A DNA stretch of 64,000 nucleotides, taken from Druceiella hillmani (Eukaryota; Arthropoda; Insecta; Lepidoptera; Hepialidae). Below are positions 9,131 to 60,884 of this stretch, piece after piece (the first letter of the stretch is position 1; each line of letters opens with the position of its first letter). The stretch is taken from NCBI GenBank assembly GCA_039881145.1, contig JAYKKI010000015.1:29488001-29552000 (forward strand), written 5' to 3'. The position numbers and the translations under genes were made by a program. A model generated the notes under the pieces. The model was not told the origin of the DNA and did not search any database. It was given only the letters and a program-made list of their open reading frames with translations.

Positions 9131-11655
9131 ACGTTTTTGCGCCATAATGGAGCAGTCGTCAAATTTTTTACATAAAAGAATACTTTTTTTTTAAATTCTA
9201 CAACTTCTATTGGTCACAAGTATGAGTTTTATGTACCACACCTATTATAACGTCGTGAGTTCTGTCAAACACTCCAGCTCCAATAGATCAATGTACTGCT
9301 GAATACTCACTAATTAAACAGAGCGCGCGATACTAAATTTAGTTCGGAATAAGTCGTGCTGCACGCGACTGCAGTGCCATTTAGGCCAGCGACATATGTC
9401 GGTCACTGCAGTCTATCGAGTGATGGCTTCTATCCTCTAAATTATACTATCGAGTAATGGCTTCTATGCTCTAAATTAATAATATCGGTAGCCCACACTT
9501 CCAAAGCAATAAGCGATCTTGCCATAATATATTTTGTTACTTATGGTTTTTGCAAGTGACCCCCTCCCCGTCTGACCGAAGTGCAAGACATTTCACGTCA
9601 AAATACCGGGGGAATGGATACAGTCTTCCATCTCACAAAATTTTTCGCCAGCAAGTTGTCCGTGCATATCGTGCATATGTGTGATATTCTTATCGATAAC
9701 GTATTATCGTCACGATTATCGATGTCAGGCTGTACGAACATATTACTAAACCTTATTCAATATAATAATATGTTTCTACATTATTAGCAGACAATGTAGG
9801 TAAAGATATTACAAAGATTTCAACATCTATTTAATATTTTGTTTCGCATCCCTAATTTAAGCTTTTGGGGTTTTAGCGCTTGTTGTTGTTTCCCCAACGA
9901 GACATATTGGTTTCGATTATTAATTTGATTATTAGTTTTGTTTATGTACATGCCTTTTTATTATTTGGGTCTGTCGTTGAGTAGAATATTTACTTTATGC
10001 CAAAAGAGTTGATCGTGACTTCAGGACGTACAGGGTTCTGGAATTAAATATTATTTTTTGGAGTAATATTATACACTGTGTATATCAAAATTGTACTGGT
10101 GTCATTCGAATTGAGATCACCACAGCTTTGTTTTTTAATAACAATATTATAATTTTTTTACAGGTATATATAACATTGTCAAATGCACTTTGAGCAAAAT
10201 ATATTAGATGGTAACAAAATATAATTGTAGTTAATCCTTAAGGTTGTACCTGACATTATTTTATAAAATATAAATAAATGTTTAAAAGATAAAACTATGA
10301 GTCAAAATAAAATATTAATTTCGACTATCTTCAATTGTGGAATTATTTTTCAAGTTTTTCATAAAATGATGATCGACAAACCCCTCAAACTTCTCAAGAT
10401 TTTTCGAATCTTCACACCAGATAAATCGTGTAGTAGATTTAAATCAAAATAAATTTATAATGACAAACAAACTGACCGATCATTTAAGGTATATAAAAAC
10501 AAGTTCATCTTTTTTCCGCAATGAAACTTAAATACGGTCTAAATGGTAACGAAATAACTTTAATAAACTTCATAACATACTATCCAATTTTAGATTAGAA
10601 ATAAAATTATCACTTAATAGAGAACTATTAATTTATTGGATAAATCTTTCATATCGTAGCTGTAATTTTTATGAGGCATTTCGAAACCACAACAATATTT
10701 TATGAATACTTCAGTTTCCTTAATATGCATGATGCGACCTCTATTAACAAGCTTTCATTAGGTCGACTTTTAACTATGTAATAGAATTTGCGAAACTAAA
10801 TTTCATGCACTTCTAATTGTTGTATCAGTTGTGTGAAGTTCACAATATAATAATTCCATAAAATTAAAATTTGTTTAGTGTTTAAACAAAAAAAAAACCA
10901 ATAGAAATAACGGAATTTTTCATTTAAATTTTCACTCACTTCCAGATGTCCCAATTATTTAAAATTTTGTACATGTATCAAGTATTGATGAAATAACAAA
11001 ATTAAGTAGCTTGATGGTCGAGAACAATAAAAACACCGTACGAGTGGGAAAGAGATTGGGAACCAATTTTGATAAGCGGTTGTTTTGATCGTAAGCACTT
11101 GTGCGAATGCGAAGTTATTTCAATAAAGCAGATATTTTTCGAATGTTTATGGAATTAATTGTAACAATGTTACCTTTTCAGAATCTGTGTGAATTGTAGG
11201 TGTTTTTGAAATAAAGTTGCCGTACATTTTTTTTAACCTAGTATTGTTCAAAAATCAATTTTCATGTTTTGTAATTGAAAAAGGCACGTGTTTCAGCGTT
11301 TAATTTTTATGTTGTCAATAAGAACGAATGAATAATATTTTAATTAGGAAGACTTGGATAAATAATAAGCACAAATAGTAATAATACCTAATAAAAAAAA
11401 TTGTTTCTCATGCGCAATAACAAAAATTTAAAAAAAATCAAAAAGTCATATCTCTAAAACTATTGGGCCTAGGATAGTAACATTTTTGTTTTGTATGTGT
11501 AATAACCCTCTCTGTCACCGACATTTTATTGGTCCACTCCTTGCGGGATTCACGAGAACTTATTCCCGTGCACGCCATTCATTTTTATCGAAATAATTAT
11601 TTAAAGAATAATTTTTTTATACTTGTGCATTTTGAGACAATAATCAATTTTCGAC
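9131..11655. other. No gene recognised; local palindromes and a tandem duplication
   Basis: At 9367-9413 GACTGCAGTG and its complement flank an inner 12-base palindrome CGACATATGTCG (9390-9401). Immediately after, about 34 bases with the core ATGGCTTCTAT are duplicated in tandem (9413-9446 and 9448-9480). The rest is AT-rich and featureless. Confidence 0.6.
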
Positions 11656-11779
11656 CGATTAGGTCTCCACGTCCGGCGTCAACTTCCGATTAGGTCTCCA
11701 CGTCCGGCGTCAACTTCCGATTAGGTCTCCACGTCCGGTGTCAACTTCCGATTAGGTCTCCACGTCCGGCGTCAACTTC
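11656..11779. repeat. 31-bp minisatellite, four copies
   Basis: Four head-to-tail copies of a 31-base unit containing GGTCTCCACGTCCGGCGTC start at 11656, 11687, 11718 and 11749. The third has a single C to T change (CCGGTGTC). The unit is far more GC-rich than its surroundings, and near-identity of the copies indicates recent expansion. It is not a CRISPR: units abut without spacers. Confidence 0.97.
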
Positions 11780-12680
11780 CATATAAGTAGCCTTGAAAAT
11801 TGCAGCAGCTAGAATAGTTTCAAAGGACTATGTTAATCTTTCAAATGGACCTTTTTATGGTAGCTGACAGGTAGGCTGATTCTTGTTTTTAAAACTCACA
11901 TTGCAGTGCAGCAAAATTGTGTAAATTTATGTATATGTAATTTATAAGGCCTTTACACAGACAGGTCCTTTTAATGTTCCACGATGTAATTATATTTTAA
12001 AGAAAACTAAAGACAAACTAACTACTAACGATGACTAAGTAACGACTGTTCTAAGGATTTTGAATAGTTGACCAATGTTATATGTCAATGTTAATATTAT
12101 ACGACTTGGTAATTGTTATATGTCAAATGCAGAGGCTTATTCTCTGCTTTATAATTCTGTTGGTCACACTCTTTTATATCACAAAAGTGTTTGCCACCAA
12201 GATATTTGAGCATGTATCGGATTAATTTGCCATACATTTTTTGTCGTATTGTATTATAAATAAATCTTAGGTGTTGTCAATCACGTAAGATTGCCATATG
12301 CGAACAACTCGCTGATGATAGCTTTTGCCAGATGAAAATTAGTACTGAGTTTAATAATAAGGAGAAAATTTGCATATTATCATAAAACAACAAGGAATCC
12401 TCGATCATTTTTAAATATCTTCAAAATTTCTTTATAAAATAAAAATAAATGACCCTAAAGAGAAAAGTCAGTTTCTTATCAAACTTTAGTTTATAATAAA
12501 AAATCAAATATACAAGTAAAGCACATATTTAAAAACAAATTTTTATTTGGAAATAAATTATCAGTCGTAACGTCAGAAGTTTTTAGTTTAAGATAAATCT
12601 TTAAAACAGATGTGAATTCTCATTTCTATATGCAATTAATTATTGAAATTGCTTTTGAAGTTATATATATTTATTCGTCC
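11780..12680. other. AT-rich stretch, no gene recognised
   Basis: No domain-bearing frame, RNA gene or repeat found. Confidence 0.5.
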
Positions 12681-16225: not shown

Positions 16226-16452
16226 TGTTTCATTTTACACAATTAAATGAAATTACGTGATGTAGTATTATTTCCATTTTCTTTAAGTTCATTACCACGA
16301 CCTAGGTTTCGTTATATTACATCTTCAGGTGAACCTAGGTCGTGGTAATGAACTTAAAGAAAGTATAAATAATACTACATCACGTAGTTTCATTTAATTG
16401 TGAATAATGAATTTCTACAAAATTAAGCCAAATATATTCAATGTTTCATTTT
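16226..16452. mobile_element. Foldback Penelope-like insertion with 11-bp TSD
   Basis: The target duplication TGTTTCATTTT lies at 16226-16236 and 16442-16452. Between them, a left arm (16237-16305) is the inverted copy of the right arm (16332-16400), joined through a hammerhead-like core. A 40-base tail ending CAAATATATTCA follows on the right only. Arms and tail match the ends of the 29.9 kb Penelope-like copy. No coding sequence remains. Removing the element and one TSD copy restores a member of the interspersed family (ATTATAAGTGTTTCATTTTT followed by GCTATTGGCTACGGAATCC), so the boundaries are well supported. Confidence 0.88.
16295..16332 (-). ncRNA. Hammerhead-ribozyme-like core
   Basis: Read on the minus strand: CAC (stem I), CTGAAGA (hammerhead CUGANGA box), a short GT/AC stem II, GAAA, a three-pair stem III (ACC-TA-GGT), then C as the expected cleavage base, then GTGG closing stem I. 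One extra T sits between the CUGANGA box and stem II, and stem II is weak. Hammerhead motifs are known from Penelope-like elements, which supports the reading. Activity is unproven. Confidence 0.5.
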
Positions 16453-17488: not shown

Positions 17489-17870
17489 GACAATTCAAAT
17501 ACCACTAAACAAATGTACAGTGTTTAAGTCGGTAATGCAGTACAGCTTTAAAATCACTGTAATGATTACCAAAATAAAAAAGTAGTACTTAATTGAAAAA
17601 TTTAAATTTTTTTATATATAAGGTATTAATTTTTTATGTACGTTTTTTCCTCAAAATTCGTAAATAAATAGTTTGCGATCATTTTGTTACAATTTGTGTT
17701 TTGTTAAAGCTTCAATTAACACTACTAAGTAGTTGAACCAATCCAAAAAGCACGAGTATGTTTAGTGTGACAGTTGAATTTGTAAGATGCCTTCTATTTA
17801 AAAGTAGCATTGTCTTTTTGAAAAAAGTTTTTGAGAAAGTCCTGCATTTTCTATGCTTGTAATATGCTAA

Positions 17871-18181
17871 ATGCAACTGGTAATATGGTGGTACAGTAGT
17901 TTAATACAACTGGTAATATGGTAGTACAGTAGTTTAATACAACTGGTAATATGGCTGTGCAGTAGTTTAATACAACTGGTAATATGGTGGTACAGTAGTT
18001 TAATACAACTGGTAATATGGTGGTACGGTAGTTTAATACAACTGGTAATATGGTGGTACGGTAGTTTAATACAACTGGTAATATGGTGGTACAGTAGTTT
18101 AATACGACTGGTAATATGGTGGTACAGTAGTTTAATACATCTGGTAATGTGATGGTACAGTAGTTTAATAGAACTGGTAAT
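17871..18181. repeat. 33-bp minisatellite, about nine copies
   Basis: Head-to-tail units contain AACTGGTAATATGGTGGTAC and then AGTAGTTTAATAC. The 33-base period is a multiple of three, so the minus strand is open for 116 codons as an 11-residue repeat (VVLNYCTTILP). Substitutions between units are scattered and not obviously synonymous. I treat the frame as a by-product of the period. Confidence 0.97.
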
Positions 18182-21100
18182 ACGGTAGCACTTTCGCTCA
18201 CTCAGCGGATATAACCACTCACCGCCCCAATGATTAGTACGGCGTGCGCTTAATTCAATGTAAGATGGGCGTAAATTATTTTCTAATTAATGGCAGTGAA
18301 ACGACTTATTATGTCAACTTATCAAAAGCTATAACAATAATTGACATCAATATAATTTATAGGCAACTAAATTTTGACACAAGGTCAGATGAAATTCTAC
18401 TCCAAAGCAATATGTGCGCCAGTATAAATGGAGAACCATTATATGTCTGCTTCATATAAGGTTCTTGTCGTGGATTTAACGACATTTCGTATAAAGTTAA
18501 TATTGCCCAATAAAATATTACAAAAGCAAATTGGCACATAGGTTTGTTTCTAATAAATAACCAATACCAGAGATAATAGAATATAATAATAGAATAGTGA
18601 ATATTTTCCTTTGAAAGAGGAAATTTAGTAAAGGTTCAACAGCTATCAATATCCGTAGTTAAATTTTAAACAATAAATGTGAAATCTCGGTGATATTTAA
18701 AGATATATAACCACCAAATTCATATAATCGTAGAAACTTTGTGATATATAAATCTTATATTTTAGTAAGAAAGAGAGGATGTATCTCGATCGATTGTATT
18801 AAGTTGTATTTTCATAACTGAGACATTATTTTTAATTATAAACGATAATAAGACAAAACTGGTCACAACCTCCTTTCAATATAACCACATTGTTATAAGT
18901 TAAACAAGCATTAGATTTTATCTTAAAAAGCTGCACAGCGGAGTGTCAAAACATTAAATGTCAAGGTGTCTGACTAAATTGAGAACTTACGTATATGAAT
19001 ATGTGCATATATATGTTTGTGCAGTGCAACATAGGTCCTTTGAACACGGAAGCGAATGGCAGCGGCGCCGGAAGAACGGCGGCCGCCCCGTCAGCTGACA
19101 ACCTCCATGACACAGTTGCCCTAAATGTATTAATATCACAGTTCGAATCTCTTTACTGACCAGTATCCTTCTCAATACTATTTATCGCCTTTACATTACC
19201 AAGGATATAATGTTCCCTCAGCCACTTCGATTGCGTATTTACGTACATAGTTTTGACCTATGTAGATTTTCAAGAGATGGAGCAAGCTTTTAAGATGATA
19301 AATGACGAGGTTTCATTCAGTCGGTTAAGAGATGTCTTCTTTGCATTGACACTAATTAGGTAATTAGGGTAGTGTGTACAACACTGAATAAATTACTTCC
19401 TGTTCCATTAATAAATGTCGGATGTTTCAGACAACACTGTATTTCAAAAATGTCTTGCTAATGAGAAAGTGATATTCATTCAAATTCGAATATGAAGATT
19501 AATGGCTAAAACATGTAATAATTTAGTTATTTGCATGCTCGTTTTACGTTCAAGTTGACCGAAAAGCATTTCTATTTAAAGAATGTAGTCAAAGACTCTC
19601 AAAATAATTAGCCATGTGGAAATGAAAAATATTAAAAAATGAAAATTACAAAAATATATTTCTTTAACAAACATAAAAAAACTATTTAGGCTAATTAATT
19701 AATGTAAAAACCAAATTAATGCAAATTCCAAAGACATATCTATTTTATATTTCCAGTGATGAGGGAGACAAGAAAGGTGAAAAAAAATTAAAGAATGTAC
19801 GAAATGTAATAATCTTAATAATGGAAGGTAATCGTAATAATTTACCAATAATATCATTAAATTTAATAATCATTAAAATGGAATTAAAAATGTCTAGTCA
19901 ATATACGTATATATTATTAAATTAATTATAGTTTTGAATATAATTTCTTCTCTCAATTTCATTTTCTTTTAATCCATGTATTGTGTACAATATTCACTTT
20001 CAAACAACAATTTATTTCTCTTTTAATGCTCTAGATACTAAATAATAACATTTTTGCACTAATTTTTATATCTTCACGGTTTTGTCAACAAAAGCGTGAT
20101 TCATATTTTTTATAATTTTTTATATCGAGATTTGCTTAAAATCAGTTCAATTTATTCTGCCATTCGCGTTAATTTGAAACCAACTACCTAAACATTATGT
20201 TCGAGAGATAGGCGGGCATATAAATACACTAGAAAATGAGTCACCTTTTGGAGCACAGAAGTTTAGGAAATTACTGACCACTAAGCGGCAAAAAGTAAGT
20301 GAACAAACCAGTTGTCTCACAATTAGAATTATGTTGAGACATGTAGAGGGCACGCCCATAATTGTAATTCAAGTTGCAGAGCATTTTTGAAGCGTTTTTT
20401 TCAAGATTCGTATTTGTGTTAGAAATATGGACATGTACTCTCAGTAACCCAGCAGCCTGGTTTAGTCAAAACTGCGGCGAGTTGAATAAACAATTTTGAG
20501 AAAAAGATATTGTTAACTATCAAATAAATGGAGCTAAAGACTGAAATAGCAATCAAAATATTATGACAGCTATGTGAAAAAAAATTTCCTACAATCAAAA
20601 AGGCACATAAGCATAATTACGAAACATTAAGTAATTTCAATTGAACAAGAGGTATTTCGAATTTAATAAAATGGAGTATAAGCCAATTACGTAGAACAAT
20701 AATTATTAATTTGGTATTATTTATAACTAGGCATAAAATATTATAACTAATTCTATAACCAGTATAATTCTATATATAGCATAATTCTATATACAGTATC
20801 AAGAATTGCTTTTAAACCTGGCGGGATTATTCTGGCTCTTCGCAACATTCTTAAATCCTTTGTTATTTTGTCCTCTGCAATTACCCTGCGATTATATTAA
20901 TTTGCCTTTCTATGTCTATAAACAATTTGTCAACATACTCTAAGAACTGCCTGTTCTGTAAATACCTTTCTAAAACTGGAATTATATTCCACCTTAAAAT
21001 GACACCCAATTTTGCACAATTACTATTTGTTTACACCGCGACAATTTGCAATACAGTCGATCCTGAGTCACATGCACTTGATGCATATAACGATATAAAA

Positions 21101-29877: not shown

Positions 29878-29976
29878 AATTATCCTTATTGACAATTAAA
29901 TGAAACTACGTGATGTAGTATTATTTCTACTTTCTTTAATTTCTTTTCCATGACGTAGGTTTCGTTGTATTGTTAA

Positions 29977-30197
29977 AATAATAAACCAGACACATCTCAC
30001 TTTGCTAAACATCTCATTGAAAATAACCATCACCCCATACTGATAATGCCCCCTATATATTACAAATAAATACAAAAGGTATTAAACTTAATATCCTATA
30101 AACATTAGAAATAAACAGACGTAAAAAAGACACTAAGGTTAATTTATTAAATGAACAACTAAATATAATATCGTCACCCATACTTAATATCTTCTAG
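29977..30197 (+). pseudogene. Penelope-like C-terminal (GIY-YIG end) remnant
   Basis: Penelope-like elements encode a reverse transcriptase followed by a GIY-YIG endonuclease. Here SHFAKHLIENNHHP matches the conserved FA-HL-E--H segment late in that endonuclease region. After a frameshift near 30080, LEINRRKKDTKVNLLNEQLN matches the C-terminal LE...LNEQ segment. A stop codon ends the frame at 30195-30197. The reverse transcriptase and the GIY/YIG motifs themselves are absent. Two in-frame stops precede the shift, so the protein is not functional. Confidence 0.75.
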
Positions 30198-30682
30198 ATA
30201 TAATATAATTAGACAACATTGATACTACAGTACTCTTGAAATTGTTTCAGCCTAAGTACACATATAAATATAAATATAAGTATATATAAAAAAAAACAAA
30301 ATTAAAAGAAATAAATAAAAAAATATATGCATAAACAAAACCGGAGATATGTAGAATTAGTGGTATTACCTTGTCCTTACTTTTAAATACCTTGCTTTCG
30401 TATAAATATATTACCGATAATAACTTCCATTTAATTTTATTACATACACAGGAATATTTGCATTGTACCACCTCACATAATAACAACAATTGAATTTATT
30501 ACCCTCACTAAAATACTGGTATATCGTATAACTCTCGGAAATATAATAAAACCTACACCGCGCCCCTGCAATAAACTCACTAACATAAGCAGTGGAAAAA
30601 CCCCCACAAACCCGGCTTCCGCTATTGTGTTTGAAACATAAATGCCGTTGAATGTTCCGAAGAGTTAATCTTTGCTAATATC

Positions 30683-30723
30683 CCACCTGAAGATGTTGTA
30701 ATACAACAAAACCTAGGTCGTGG
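30683..30723 (+). ncRNA. Hammerhead-ribozyme-like core in the Penelope-like 3' end
   Basis: CCAC (30683-30686) pairs with GTGG (30720-30723) as stem I. CTGAAGA (30687-30693) is the CUGANGA box. TGTTGT/ACAACA forms a perfect stem II with an AAT loop. ACC-TA-GGT forms stem III before C30719, the expected cleavage base. Two defects: the GAAA box reads AAAA, losing the conserved G, and an extra T precedes stem II if that G position is kept out of the stem. This copy is probably inactive; the 16.3 kb copy keeps GAAA. Confidence 0.55.
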
Positions 30724-30839
30724 TAAAGAAATTAAAGAAAGTAGAAATAATACTCCATCACGTAGTTTCATTTAATTGTCAATAATGAATTTCTACAAAA
30801 TTAACGCCAAATATATTCAAATTATCCTTATATAATTTC

Positions 30840-52157: not shown

Positions 52158-53040
52158 TCGTGATCATGACTCGGCCGGTTCCTTCGCCACTGCCGCCCTC
52201 GCGATGTGACGCCATGTAGTTCGGTGTTTTGCGGAGTGAGAGCAGTCATTTACACTGGAGTGCGTCGCAGATTTTATTAGGTCTGTCCACCGTTTCGGAG
52301 AGCGTCCGCGGGATCGTTTGCCTTCGACTTTGCCTTGCACCACCAGTCGTTCCATGGAGTCCTCGTTACGGGTGACATGTCCAAAAAAATTGAGGATTCG
52401 CAATTGCACAGTCGACGTTAATCTCTCTTTGATGTTAAGTTCCTTGAGGATCGAAACGTTGGTTCGGTGCGCGTCCATGGGAAAAAACGCCTCCAGCACC
52501 CCATTTCCAGCGCGTCAATTTTGTGGCGGTCTTGCATCCTCAGCGTCCACGTCTCAGCTCCATATAGAAAAATCAGAAAGACCAGGCATTTCATAAGTCG
52601 AACCTTTGTGTTTCTGGTTATTCTGCGGTCTTTCCAGATCTTTGTGAGTTTTTCCACTGATGATCTCGTCACGGCGCAACGTCTTCGAAACTCATCCTCG
52701 CAACCTCCATCATTAGCGATAGTGGAGCCCAGATATACGTAGCTCTTCACTACCTGGCATCCTGCTATATTTTGGATGTTCGGTTGGTTATTGTTAGCAC
52801 GATCTACAATCATAATTTTAGTCTTATCGCGATTGATTGTAAGCCCAAACTCCAATGCTGTGGTCTGCAGTCGTTGTAGGAGAGACTCGATTTCATCTTT
52901 TGTTGACGCTAGGAGGGTGGTGTCATCTGCGTACCTCAAGTTTGATATCTTCCGACTCCCCACCGATATTCCCTTATTCCAATCTTCAAGAACTATACGC
53001 ATTAGGTATTCTGTGTATATGTTAAAGAGGAGTAATATAT
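52158..53040 (-). pseudogene. RTE-like LINE reverse transcriptase, 5'-truncated
   Basis: A minus frame from about 53035 to 52418 encodes the end of a non-LTR reverse transcriptase: ISNLRYADDTTLLAS with the intact catalytic YADD at 52922-52933, LTINRDKTKIMI, KSYVYLGSTI and KCLVFLIFLYGAETWTL. A one-base shift near 52470 moves to a second frame holding HRTNVSILKELNIKERL, RILNFFGHVTRNEDS and EGKRSRGRSPKRWTDLIKS, the standard end of this class, with a stop at about 52164. Only this shift separates the two pieces, so the copy is young. Upstream, homology stops abruptly at about 53035 (5' truncation, usual for LINEs) beside a small duplicated CTTCTCTTATATAAT-like stretch. It is often annotated as craniofacial-development-protein-2-like in insects. 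Confidence 0.92.
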
Positions 53041-53835
53041 TATATAAGAGAAGTAATATTTAAGTAAATACCCACAATTCCTCTTCCTATTAACTTTTTT
53101 CCCTTCTTTACGACTTGTTAAAGAACAATTTCGAAGGTGAACATTACAACAGTATTTTAGCGCAGGAGGCTGATAAATCCGGCAAGATTAATGATAAAAT
53201 TAAACTGTATTTTGTCAGTAAGTCGTGATAAAAAAGGAAATTACGTCAAGACGGGCGCGTCGTTTTAGTATTTGCTTCCTTCCTGTCAGTTATTTAGGGA
53301 GCAACTTGTCATTTTTCACGTTTCCAGTGGATTTTACGGTCGGTCGGTCGCCTTAGTGATTTACATGCTCCATTAAGCTTGTCGGAAGCTGAAAAATAAT
53401 TAATTGATATACTTGCGAATAATTATTAGTAAATTATTGTCGAAAGTAGCCAAGTATTTTTGAAGCTTATTTTTCAATAAAGAAGTACTTAATTTATTAT
53501 CTTTTAGCTTAATTGTAAATCTGTTTAAGCAACAATATATAATCCACTTAATTTTTTTCAGAAAAACATATAACATGCCATACCTTTCATAGCCTTTAAG
53601 TAATTTTAAGGTGGACCCCAATTATGGTGGTTAAGTGGAAAACAGATAAATTTTTTTGAACTAGATCTTATTTACGCGATTTGATAATCGGTTCAGGTAT
53701 GTGCAGACTTATGAAGTCGCATCTCTAGTAGCGTATAACAATTCAAATGTAGAAAGCTCCATGATACTGCCTGTATTCTTGCCCAAGAAGTTATTTTAAT
53801 TTCCTTTATGTGATTAAAATTTCACAATGTAGATT

Positions 53836-59239: not shown

Positions 59240-60146
59240 TAAATTGCGGTGGCTATACGTTTCTTCATGTACTTAAACTTGGTCATGTGCATGAAAATAC
59301 CCGAGTCTATGTACCAGGCTTCAGTGTTGTTTGCCGAGGCTGCTATGCAGCGGCGTAACTTAACTTTTCTTAATTTCAGTCTTTCTCTACAATTAAATGA
59401 AACTACGTGATGTAGTATTATTTCTACTTTCTTTAAAAAAGTAAGTAGATATAATACTACATTACGTAGTTTCATTTAATGGTGAATAATGAATTTCTAC
59501 AAAATTAACGTCAAATATATTCAGTATTCAGTCTTTCTTTTGTTTTCATTTTGACCTGCATTCTGCACTTATGAGACCAAAATCTATTGCACTTATAACA
59601 ACGGAGTCCTTACTGAGAATAATGTTTATGTCCCTTTCCTTTGAAATATTGATTGGTTGCGAACACTTTTGCATCAGAATTTTCATTATTTATAATCATC
59701 AGTTTGCATGAATCGGGTGAACCGGAGAGAAATATTATTGCAAGCTACTCGTTCACTTTAAATCTGATGTTTTGGGGCTTATGGGCTGCAGTGATTATTC
59801 AGCTAATATATTGCTCTATATTTTGATATTCGGTAAGTGTGGTGGTACATAAATTCCGACATAAACCCACTAGATGTGCCAGTTTTGAGTTGTCAAAACA
59901 TGTTTGTGTGTACCATGCCGTGCTACACTTCAATGTTTGAGGTTCTTGTACATTTACTCAGTTTGTTGGATCCAGTAGTAAAATTATTTTCGATGTGGCT
60001 TTTAAATTTTCTTTTGGATTTGCGGTTTCTGTACGTCAACACAGTTCCACGATTCTTCGTGTTTGAGATAAGTTTTGACGGCGAATTTCCAAGTGGAATA
60101 ATTTTCACGGCCAGTTGAGTTTTCAAACAATGTCAAAGAATTATTT
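59240..60146 (-). pseudogene. Ty1/copia gag and protease, dead, split by an insertion
   Basis: Copia elements encode one Gag-Pol polyprotein. On the minus strand from 60145: GRENYSTWKFAVKTYLKHEE (Gag N-terminus), SKIILLLDPTN, LAHLVGLCRNLCTTTLTEYQ, IITAAHKPQNIRFKVNE and SGSPDSCKL, in the order found in copia Gag. Then a CCHC zinc knuckle begins CYKC (59589-59600) with H and C following (59565-59573, one frame slip). Finally WYIDSGIFMHMT (59281-59316) is the aspartic protease motif (family WxxDSGAxxHMT), with the alanine after DSG read as I. Several stops break it. The Penelope-like insertion at 59387-59526 lies between knuckle and protease. Integrase and RT are not recognisable. Confidence 0.85.
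59375..59538. mobile_element. Mini foldback Penelope-like insertion with 12-bp TSD
   Basis: The target duplication TTCAGTCTTTCT lies at 59375-59386 and 59527-59538. Between them the left arm (about 59389-59437) is the inverted copy of the right arm (about 59444-59480), followed by the 40-base tail AATAATGAATTTCTACAAAA...CAAATATATTCA. Total is 140 bases. Arms and tail match the ends of the 29.9 kb element; hammerhead and coding parts are absent. It sits in the copia pseudogene, whose reading direction resumes on both sides. Confidence 0.9.
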
Positions 60147-60440: not shown

Positions 60441-60522
60441 TTATCAGATTTTCTTGTAGTGAAAAGTGGTCTCGTATCCGTCCATCTACATGTACTCAAA
60501 TTATAAGATAATGGAAAGATAT

Positions 60523-60612
60523 AATATATTTAGAAACACCATACACAATAATATGTACGTATAATAAAATATATACGTACAGATTATTGTGTATCATATT
60601 TCTAAATATATT
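60523..60612. repeat. Foldback element, about 41-bp arms
   Basis: Left arm 60523-60563 and right arm 60571-60612 are inverted copies with a few mismatches (outer AATATATTTAGAAA, middle ATACACAATAAT, inner TGTACGTATA), around an AT-only loop. The size and AT-rich ends suit a tiny MITE or an inverted duplication. Confidence 0.88.
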
Positions 60613-60884
60613 TTAAAATAAAAACTCCTACCAATTTAATATTGCCCTAATTATTATAGCTACCCTCATATAAAAATTACATAATTATTATAAACACAGG
60701 ATTTTAGTCAAACACAATAAAACAAAGAAAATTATATGTAAAGTTTTTTTTCTAACTGTAATAATCTAAGTTTCTAAATAAGTATATTTACAGATATACG
60801 TACAGAATAGTCTTCTCAAATTATATGAAATTATTTTATTTATTTAATTATTTTCAAACAACTAAATACCATAGACAATTCAAG

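Follow-up and report, generated by a model that had tools for sequence, protein, structure and literature searches.

Palindromic Penelope-like insertions with fixed outer ends and variable centres in Druceiella hillmani, probable products of two-ended priming

The stretch of DNA analysed here (64,000 nt, hereafter the window) comes from Druceiella hillmani (Lepidoptera; Hepialidae) and represents positions 29,488,001-29,552,000 of the forward strand of contig JAYKKI010000015.1 in assembly GCA_039881145.1. Three Penelope-like foldback copies are situated in it (Table 1). Copy 1 is an insert of 205 bp (16237-16441) between exact 11-bp repeats (16226-16236 and 16442-16452), just as the initial annotation had delimited it. 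An inverted arm without tail is followed in it by a direct arm that carries the 39-nt tail, and alignment of the insert to its reverse complement gives 84.8% matches over 184 columns. The boundaries had originally been taken as proven by an interspersed repeat said to be rebuilt by excision. The joined flanks of copy 1 gave no convincing match in the window or in the fetched loci, the best being 55 bp at 78% with locus L112, in the left flank only; the boundaries are supported without such a repeat, because target duplications are present at many other copies. Two more small copies had been placed at 29.9 and 59.4 kb. Both exist and possess 12-bp duplications, but the one at 29.9 kb (copy 2, 29890-30819) is not a mini copy, as its arms are separated by about 700 bp of Penelope 3' body.

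Table 1. Coordinates of the three window copies and of larger foldbacks found in the genome.
Feature	Position	Strand	Remark
Copy 1, left target-site duplication TGTTTCATTTT	16226..16236	.	exact 11 bp
Copy 1, inverted arm	16237..16331	-	begins at site P (ACACAATTAAATG..), tail absent
Copy 1, minimal hammerhead-like core CTGAAGA..GAAAC..GTC	16299..16328	-	pattern match within inverted arm, expected 0.02
Copy 1, direct arm	16332..16402	+	reaches site P
Copy 1, tail	16403..16441	+	from site P to site E
Copy 1, right target-site duplication TGTTTCATTTT	16442..16452	.	exact 11 bp
Copy 2, left target duplication AATTATCCTTAT	29878..29889	.	12 bp
Copy 2, inverted arm	29890..29972	-	inner end approximate
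Copy 2, Penelope 3' body	29973..30667	+	end of GIY-YIG-like endonuclease frame (..SHFAKHLIENNHH..), then promoter region
Copy 2, direct arm and tail	30668..30819	+	30668 = putative transcription start (unit position 1)
Copy 2, right target duplication AATTATCCTTAT	30820..30831	.	12 bp
Copy 3, left target duplication TTCAGTCTTTCT	59375..59386	.	12 bp
Copy 3, inverted arm, direct arm and tail	59387..59526	.	140 bp, shortest foldback of the three
Copy 3, right target duplication TTCAGTCTTTCT	59527..59538	.	12 bp
Larger foldbacks	G000 C43:181977-183503, C19:27714474-27715980, C1:6276896-6278245, C10:7799357-7800685, C51:10959932-10960910

A hammerhead-like core had been described as a component between the two arms of copy 1. 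A match to the minimal core pattern (CTGANGA..GAAAC..GTC) is indeed found, as the single occurrence in the window, at 16299-16328 on the minus strand with a chance expectation of 0.02, but it forms part of the inverted arm and not a separate module between the arms. We take this putative core to resemble the hammerheads of Penelope elements. The same pattern was found in 37 of 80 sampled loci (reversed control 0), on both strands in four of them. No match to the Rfam hammerhead models was found in the window or in ten loci, and nearly all Rfam matches to the foldbacks were microRNA-type hairpins under the gathering score. Minimal type I hammerheads are reported within Penelope elements in passages of PMC7761336 and PMC6155905.

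The exact tail 31-mer is present 31,377 times in the genome (reversed control 0). The statistics given here are based on a positional sample of 80 loci, the first 80 among 100 listed occurrences; as an exact tail was required, the sample is biased to young copies and tail-less copies cannot appear in it. Its mean divergence from the consensus is 3.1%, three subfamily sites left out. An earlier sample (40 scored of 3172 candidates from a genome search with the window insert as query) was picked by likeness to copy 1 and was used for anatomy but excluded from the statistics; both arms were observed in all 40 of its loci. Scanning of 700 bp upstream of the tail in the 80 loci revealed an inverted-arm match in 65, nine of these matches being shorter than 40 nt. 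Among the other 15, eight run on upstream into Penelope 3' body, as judged by eye and alignment, and seven show neither. The proposal of a recurrent, genome-wide class is thus borne out by the 31,377 tails and the 65 inverted arms. Exact arm 28-mers number 52,629 in the genome, which gives about 1.7 arms per tail as a rough, uncorrected ratio, close to the 2 expected at one tail per copy. When up to 3 mismatches were allowed, 77,250 occurrences of the arm through the tail were counted.

Exact target duplications of at least 9 bp, with a mode of 12-13, were found in 46 of the 65 copies with an inverted arm and were absent in 19; swapped right flanks gave 0.8. Duplications therefore accompany the majority of copies, including all three in the window. 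The inverted arm aligned to one site, P (unit positions 111-125), in 44 of the 46 duplicated copies, and in the two exceptions (L081 and L107) it begins further in. In 42 of the 46 no more than 6 nt separate the end of the duplication from the canonical P start; in four the distance is greater. On the right the copies end at site E, behind the tail. Since 46 of 65 copies possess duplications and 44 of 46 share one left start site, the outer ends of the class are defined; continuously varying left ends were not found, and the defined left end stands as originally described. The target flanks carry a weak mirror-symmetric nTTAA bias: TTAA was found just outside the duplication on the left (bottom-strand reading) in 13 of 46 copies and on the right in 6 of 46, and at displaced positions in 0-3. 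At one place (L067/L068, G000 C1 about 742,600-743,300) two tail copies are positioned 369 bp apart with an identical right flank, which is a local duplication of a foldback end together with its flank.

The centre of the copies follows no such rule. Inner structure was compared in 49 two-armed copies, all possessing a target duplication of 8 bp or more. Their insert length ranges from 75 to 318 bp with a median of 228, 38 distinct pairs of inner ends were found, and agreement of both inner ends and gap to within 1 nt was seen for only two pairs of copies. Unit positions 1-5 are reached by both arms in 17 of these copies, by the inverted arm alone in nine, by the direct arm alone in nine and by neither in 14; the inner ends of the two arms may be weakly and positively associated (Fisher p 0.09; Spearman 0.21, p 0.14). 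In 16 of the 49 the inverted arm extends inwards past the direct arm by 10 nt or more. In 15 of these 16 the tail is on the direct arm alone, and neither arm is therefore contained in the other; the sixteenth, L110, has a tail on both. Extra element pieces were found at the junction of four of the 15 non-contained copies (L088, L111, L116 and L128), the other 11 being clean. The inverted arm is at least 10 nt shorter in 10 of the 49, and the inner ends are equal in 13. The longer inner reach thus goes both ways, 21 against 15 with 13 equal. A rule by which the cDNA begun at P always runs further inside than the cDNA begun at E fitted most of the first 40 query-picked loci and was given up on these counts from the positional sample.

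The junction fillers differ among copies, and several of them include parts of the 5' end of the element itself, which we read as the expected result of template switching. In L111, L116, L128, L058 and L089 the fillers are assembled from extra copies of element parts, which suggests repeated template switching. Larger foldbacks with Penelope body on both strands were observed at 5 of 40 scored body places (Table 1); both of their cDNAs may come from read-through RNA.

Upstream continuation of the unit was available in nine sequences, namely the eight of the 80 sampled loci and window copy 2, and this continuation into Penelope 3' body supports the Penelope-like origin first suspected from copy 1. 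A TATA-like box is situated about 31 nt before unit position 1 wherever no indel intervenes, with TATAAA kept in five of the nine. On account of this spacing, unit position 1 (ATCTTTGCTAATA) is probably the transcription start and the mRNA 5' end, and the arms ending there are therefore read as run-off cDNAs. The body of L135 and L136 contains a GIY-YIG-like frame, SG(I/V)YKLK..CNSVYIGQTGRDFNTRY..EHI, with Pfam scores of 17.4 and 16.5 bits, under the cut-off of 22.6; genome-wide, PF01541 was found above the cut-off at 2 places among 150 scored of 1572 candidates. Further upstream than the endonuclease frame, L138 possesses the motif ..HPWSYKLAAFHSMIHRALIIPL, which we take to be the end of a Penelope-type reverse transcriptase. 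No full-length element or intact ORF was found among L132-L138, which are 3' body fragments, and the single long stretch among them, L138, is 5'-truncated. The tail frame MNFYKINAKYIQ may represent the start of an ORF. Two features of a Penelope/Poseidon-type parent are present in the sample: a pseudo-LTR arrangement, with the inverted arm in 65 of 80 loci and the 39-nt tail usually on one side, and short target duplications, of at least 9 bp in 46 of 65 with a mode of 12-13.

The use of the two outer sites within single copies was analysed in ten arm pairs, taken without regard to the tail from among the first 100 listed of the 52,629 exact arms. A tail is present on at least one side in all ten and none is tail-less on both, as judged from the exact tail list for five pairs, from the tolerant arm-through-tail count for two and from reading on both sides for three. 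The three pairs read on both sides (L129-L131) each have P at one end and E at the opposite one; in the seven others a damaged second tail is possible. A clear tail on both ends was found in two of the 65 copies of the positional sample, L110 and L114. In the 40 query-picked loci a tail on the left was observed in four (L017, L026, L033 and L038), with tails on both sides in L017 and L026. The E-E copies L017, L026, L110 and L114 are rare exceptions to a pattern of one P and one E per copy, for which the ten pairs are suggestive. L065 was considered as a further tail-tail copy and not counted, its alignment being poor (79%) and its flank reading as a left start further in. Under even odds 25% of pairs are expected to be tail-less, and none in ten has a probability of 0.056. 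An independent choice of start site is disfavoured, because neither the many tail-tail copies expected under even odds nor the many tail-less copies expected if E were rare are found.

The two arms of a copy also share their sequence variants. Among copies with a main allele on both sides, the subfamily alleles are the same in both arms in 18 of 18 at site 14, 26 of 29 at site 64 and 31 of 31 at site 72; the arms disagree at site 15 in 4 of 17 copies and at site 37 in 3 of 23. Rare variants common to both arms number five within copies against a mean of 0.72 between copies, and none of 500 shuffles reached five. From these variants the arms would come from one RNA or from RNAs of one source locus, two origins that look alike here. 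A seemingly arm-discordant variant at site 60 was traced to query bias, with 1 T in 76 arms of the positional sample.

With a probability of roughly 0.8, we consider the mini-foldback to be the end product of an autonomous Penelope/Poseidon-type element, formed when both 3' ends of the cut target are extended and the P and E cDNAs are joined head to head. Site P would be situated about 113 nt and site E 154 nt downstream of the mRNA start. The endonuclease of the element would nick the two target strands at positions 12-13 bp from each other, with a weak mirror-symmetric preference for nTTAA. Reverse transcription would then be primed within the RNA from both target 3' ends, at P from one and at E from the other, with each start site used once per event. 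Each cDNA would be extended to the RNA 5' end or stop early, and the two would then be joined head to head, often with a filler partly copied from the element 5' end. Such an event would leave a target duplication around an insert whose left end is fixed at P and whose right end, behind the tail, is fixed at E, with a centre that varies from copy to copy. As the start sites are near the RNA 5' end, an ordinary mRNA would yield only a short product, and longer copies would call for a transcript that reads through or is tandem. We interpret the fixed left end as most likely a second start site of reverse transcription, and the arms as cDNAs which, each on its own, were cut short or ran to the RNA 5' end. 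A stronger version, to which we give slightly less than an even chance, holds that Penelope integration is obligatorily two-ended and asymmetric: P and E of one RNA are each used once, one per cut strand, the cDNAs meet, and the mini-foldbacks are the run-off of ordinary mRNA. In that case the most abundant leftover of the element is an integration by-product which records the geometry of each event.

Palindromic arms would also be given by self-priming, where a hairpin formed by the first cDNA, or by an antisense transcript, would serve as its own template and produce head-to-head arms. Passages of PMC3846280 on Penelope elements of the rotifer Adineta vaga favour this route, possibly on antisense RNA, from palindromes at inverted junctions, and leave it open there. 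The 13 copies with equal inner ends and the 10 whose inverted arm is the shorter by 10 nt or more, together 23 of the 49, fit self-priming or a two-ended route alike. A self-copied arm, however, must be contained in its template arm, and self-priming as the sole route is rejected on that ground: the 15 non-contained copies of the 49, four of them with extra pieces, are not obtainable by it in one step. Nor does it account for an inverted arm that, in 44 of 46 copies, ends at P, 39 nt before the end would be reached; we regard self-priming as improbable. Twin priming, described for the 5' inversions of human L1, has a second cDNA primed from the other target strand and gives an inverted 5' segment and a target duplication. 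An L1-like process with a random second priming site would account for the left inverted segment, the duplication and the junction filler. The second site of L1 is unfixed. Here 44 of 46 copies have theirs at P, and most of the 49 show two segments which largely overlap and do not follow one another; such an origin is extremely unlikely.

The initial annotation had preferred a mobile, non-autonomous class over truncation, in which the foldback itself would be transcribed and recopied in trans. Fixed outer ends, a high copy number and target duplications agree with this, but the junction of a master would be inherited by its copies, and the fillers differ and 38 distinct pairs of inner ends with only two alike pairs were found among 49. 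As the inner junction differs in almost every copy, the copies do not appear to descend from a mini-master, and we consider that explanation very unlikely. Hairpin shape and numerous copies might equally recall a MITE or foldback DNA transposon with terminal inverted repeats. The ends are not mutual complements, however, the left being P without tail in 44 of 46 and the right E after a tail which as a rule is on one end; the inner ends of the arms vary, and 8 of 80 copies run into the Penelope body and promoter, which leaves this explanation with almost no weight. Nor were the direct tandem repeats delimited by hammerheads of a retrozyme found, the arms being inverted and the core pattern on both strands in 4 of 80. 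We regard the foldbacks as a real and recurrent product of a known element class, by a mechanism more specific than the one first noted, and not as a new mobile class.

Biochemical data on a related element bear on two-ended priming. For Poseidon of Anolis carolinensis (PAc), passages of PMC11167929 report an enzyme which cleaves and extends both strands in vitro, reverse transcription beginning at two internal sites which bracket the tail, and a start site that did not differ between strands. The last result is not in conflict with one P and one E per copy, as either strand may take P. The element of D. hillmani would resemble PAc as an endonuclease-type Penelope with two internal start sites around a tail of 30-40 nt, both strands cut and extended and an AT-rich target. 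Unlike the in vitro PAc products, it is represented by a very large set of genomic products which, as far as read, pair one P end with one E end. The word duplication is absent from the main text of PMC11167929, and inverted copies are undiscussed in its passages found. The families of Adineta vaga, from the passages of PMC3846280, share an inverted pLTR placed head to head and an optional one-sided tail, theirs of 31 bp. Their target duplications are 8-10 bp in the cases given, against the mode of 12-13 here, and they are of low copy number, whereas here the arm-only form dominates the sample and the arm extents oppose self-priming. Metazoan non-LTR retrozymes, as presented in passages of PMC7761336, are likewise small and non-coding with a hammerhead-type core and a possible mobilisation by Penelope, but are tandem repeats spreading via RNA circles, unlike the inverted pairs with variable junctions described here. 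The genomic pattern of one P and one E appears, on limited evidence, to be new; it was found in no title or abstract opening of the Penelope, twin-priming and both-strand-priming literature searched, nor in the passages of the papers cited and of PMC12910113.

Penelope elements form the third class of eukaryotic retroelements; for the way they build inverted copies, self-priming is the published proposal, and in vitro data favour internal initiation on both strands. Tail copies of the present family number in the tens of thousands, and the majority of those sampled are small products with readable ends; they constitute a natural record of both start sites, the nick spacing, the RNA 5' end and the joining step, so that self-priming and two-ended priming become testable from sequence alone. 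Such copies resemble hairpin DNA transposons or microRNA precursors and are probably neither, which calls for caution in annotation.

Other repeats are also present in the window. A near-perfect, MITE-like hairpin at 2080-2171 (..AAACCTGTATTTCTAAGGGTCGGGTT..AACCCGACCCTTAGAAATACAGGTTT..) is unrelated to the Penelope insert, and an AT-rich hairpin of about 96 bp at 60520-60615 shows no match to it. Tandem arrays were found at 17870-18186 (9.6 copies of a 33-bp unit) and at 11655-11780 (4.1 copies of a GC-rich 31-bp unit, 97% matches). Stop-to-stop frames of 150 aa or longer are limited to one in the window, at 52421-53059 on the minus strand, which represents a reverse transcriptase fragment (Pfam RVT_1, E 1.1e-11).
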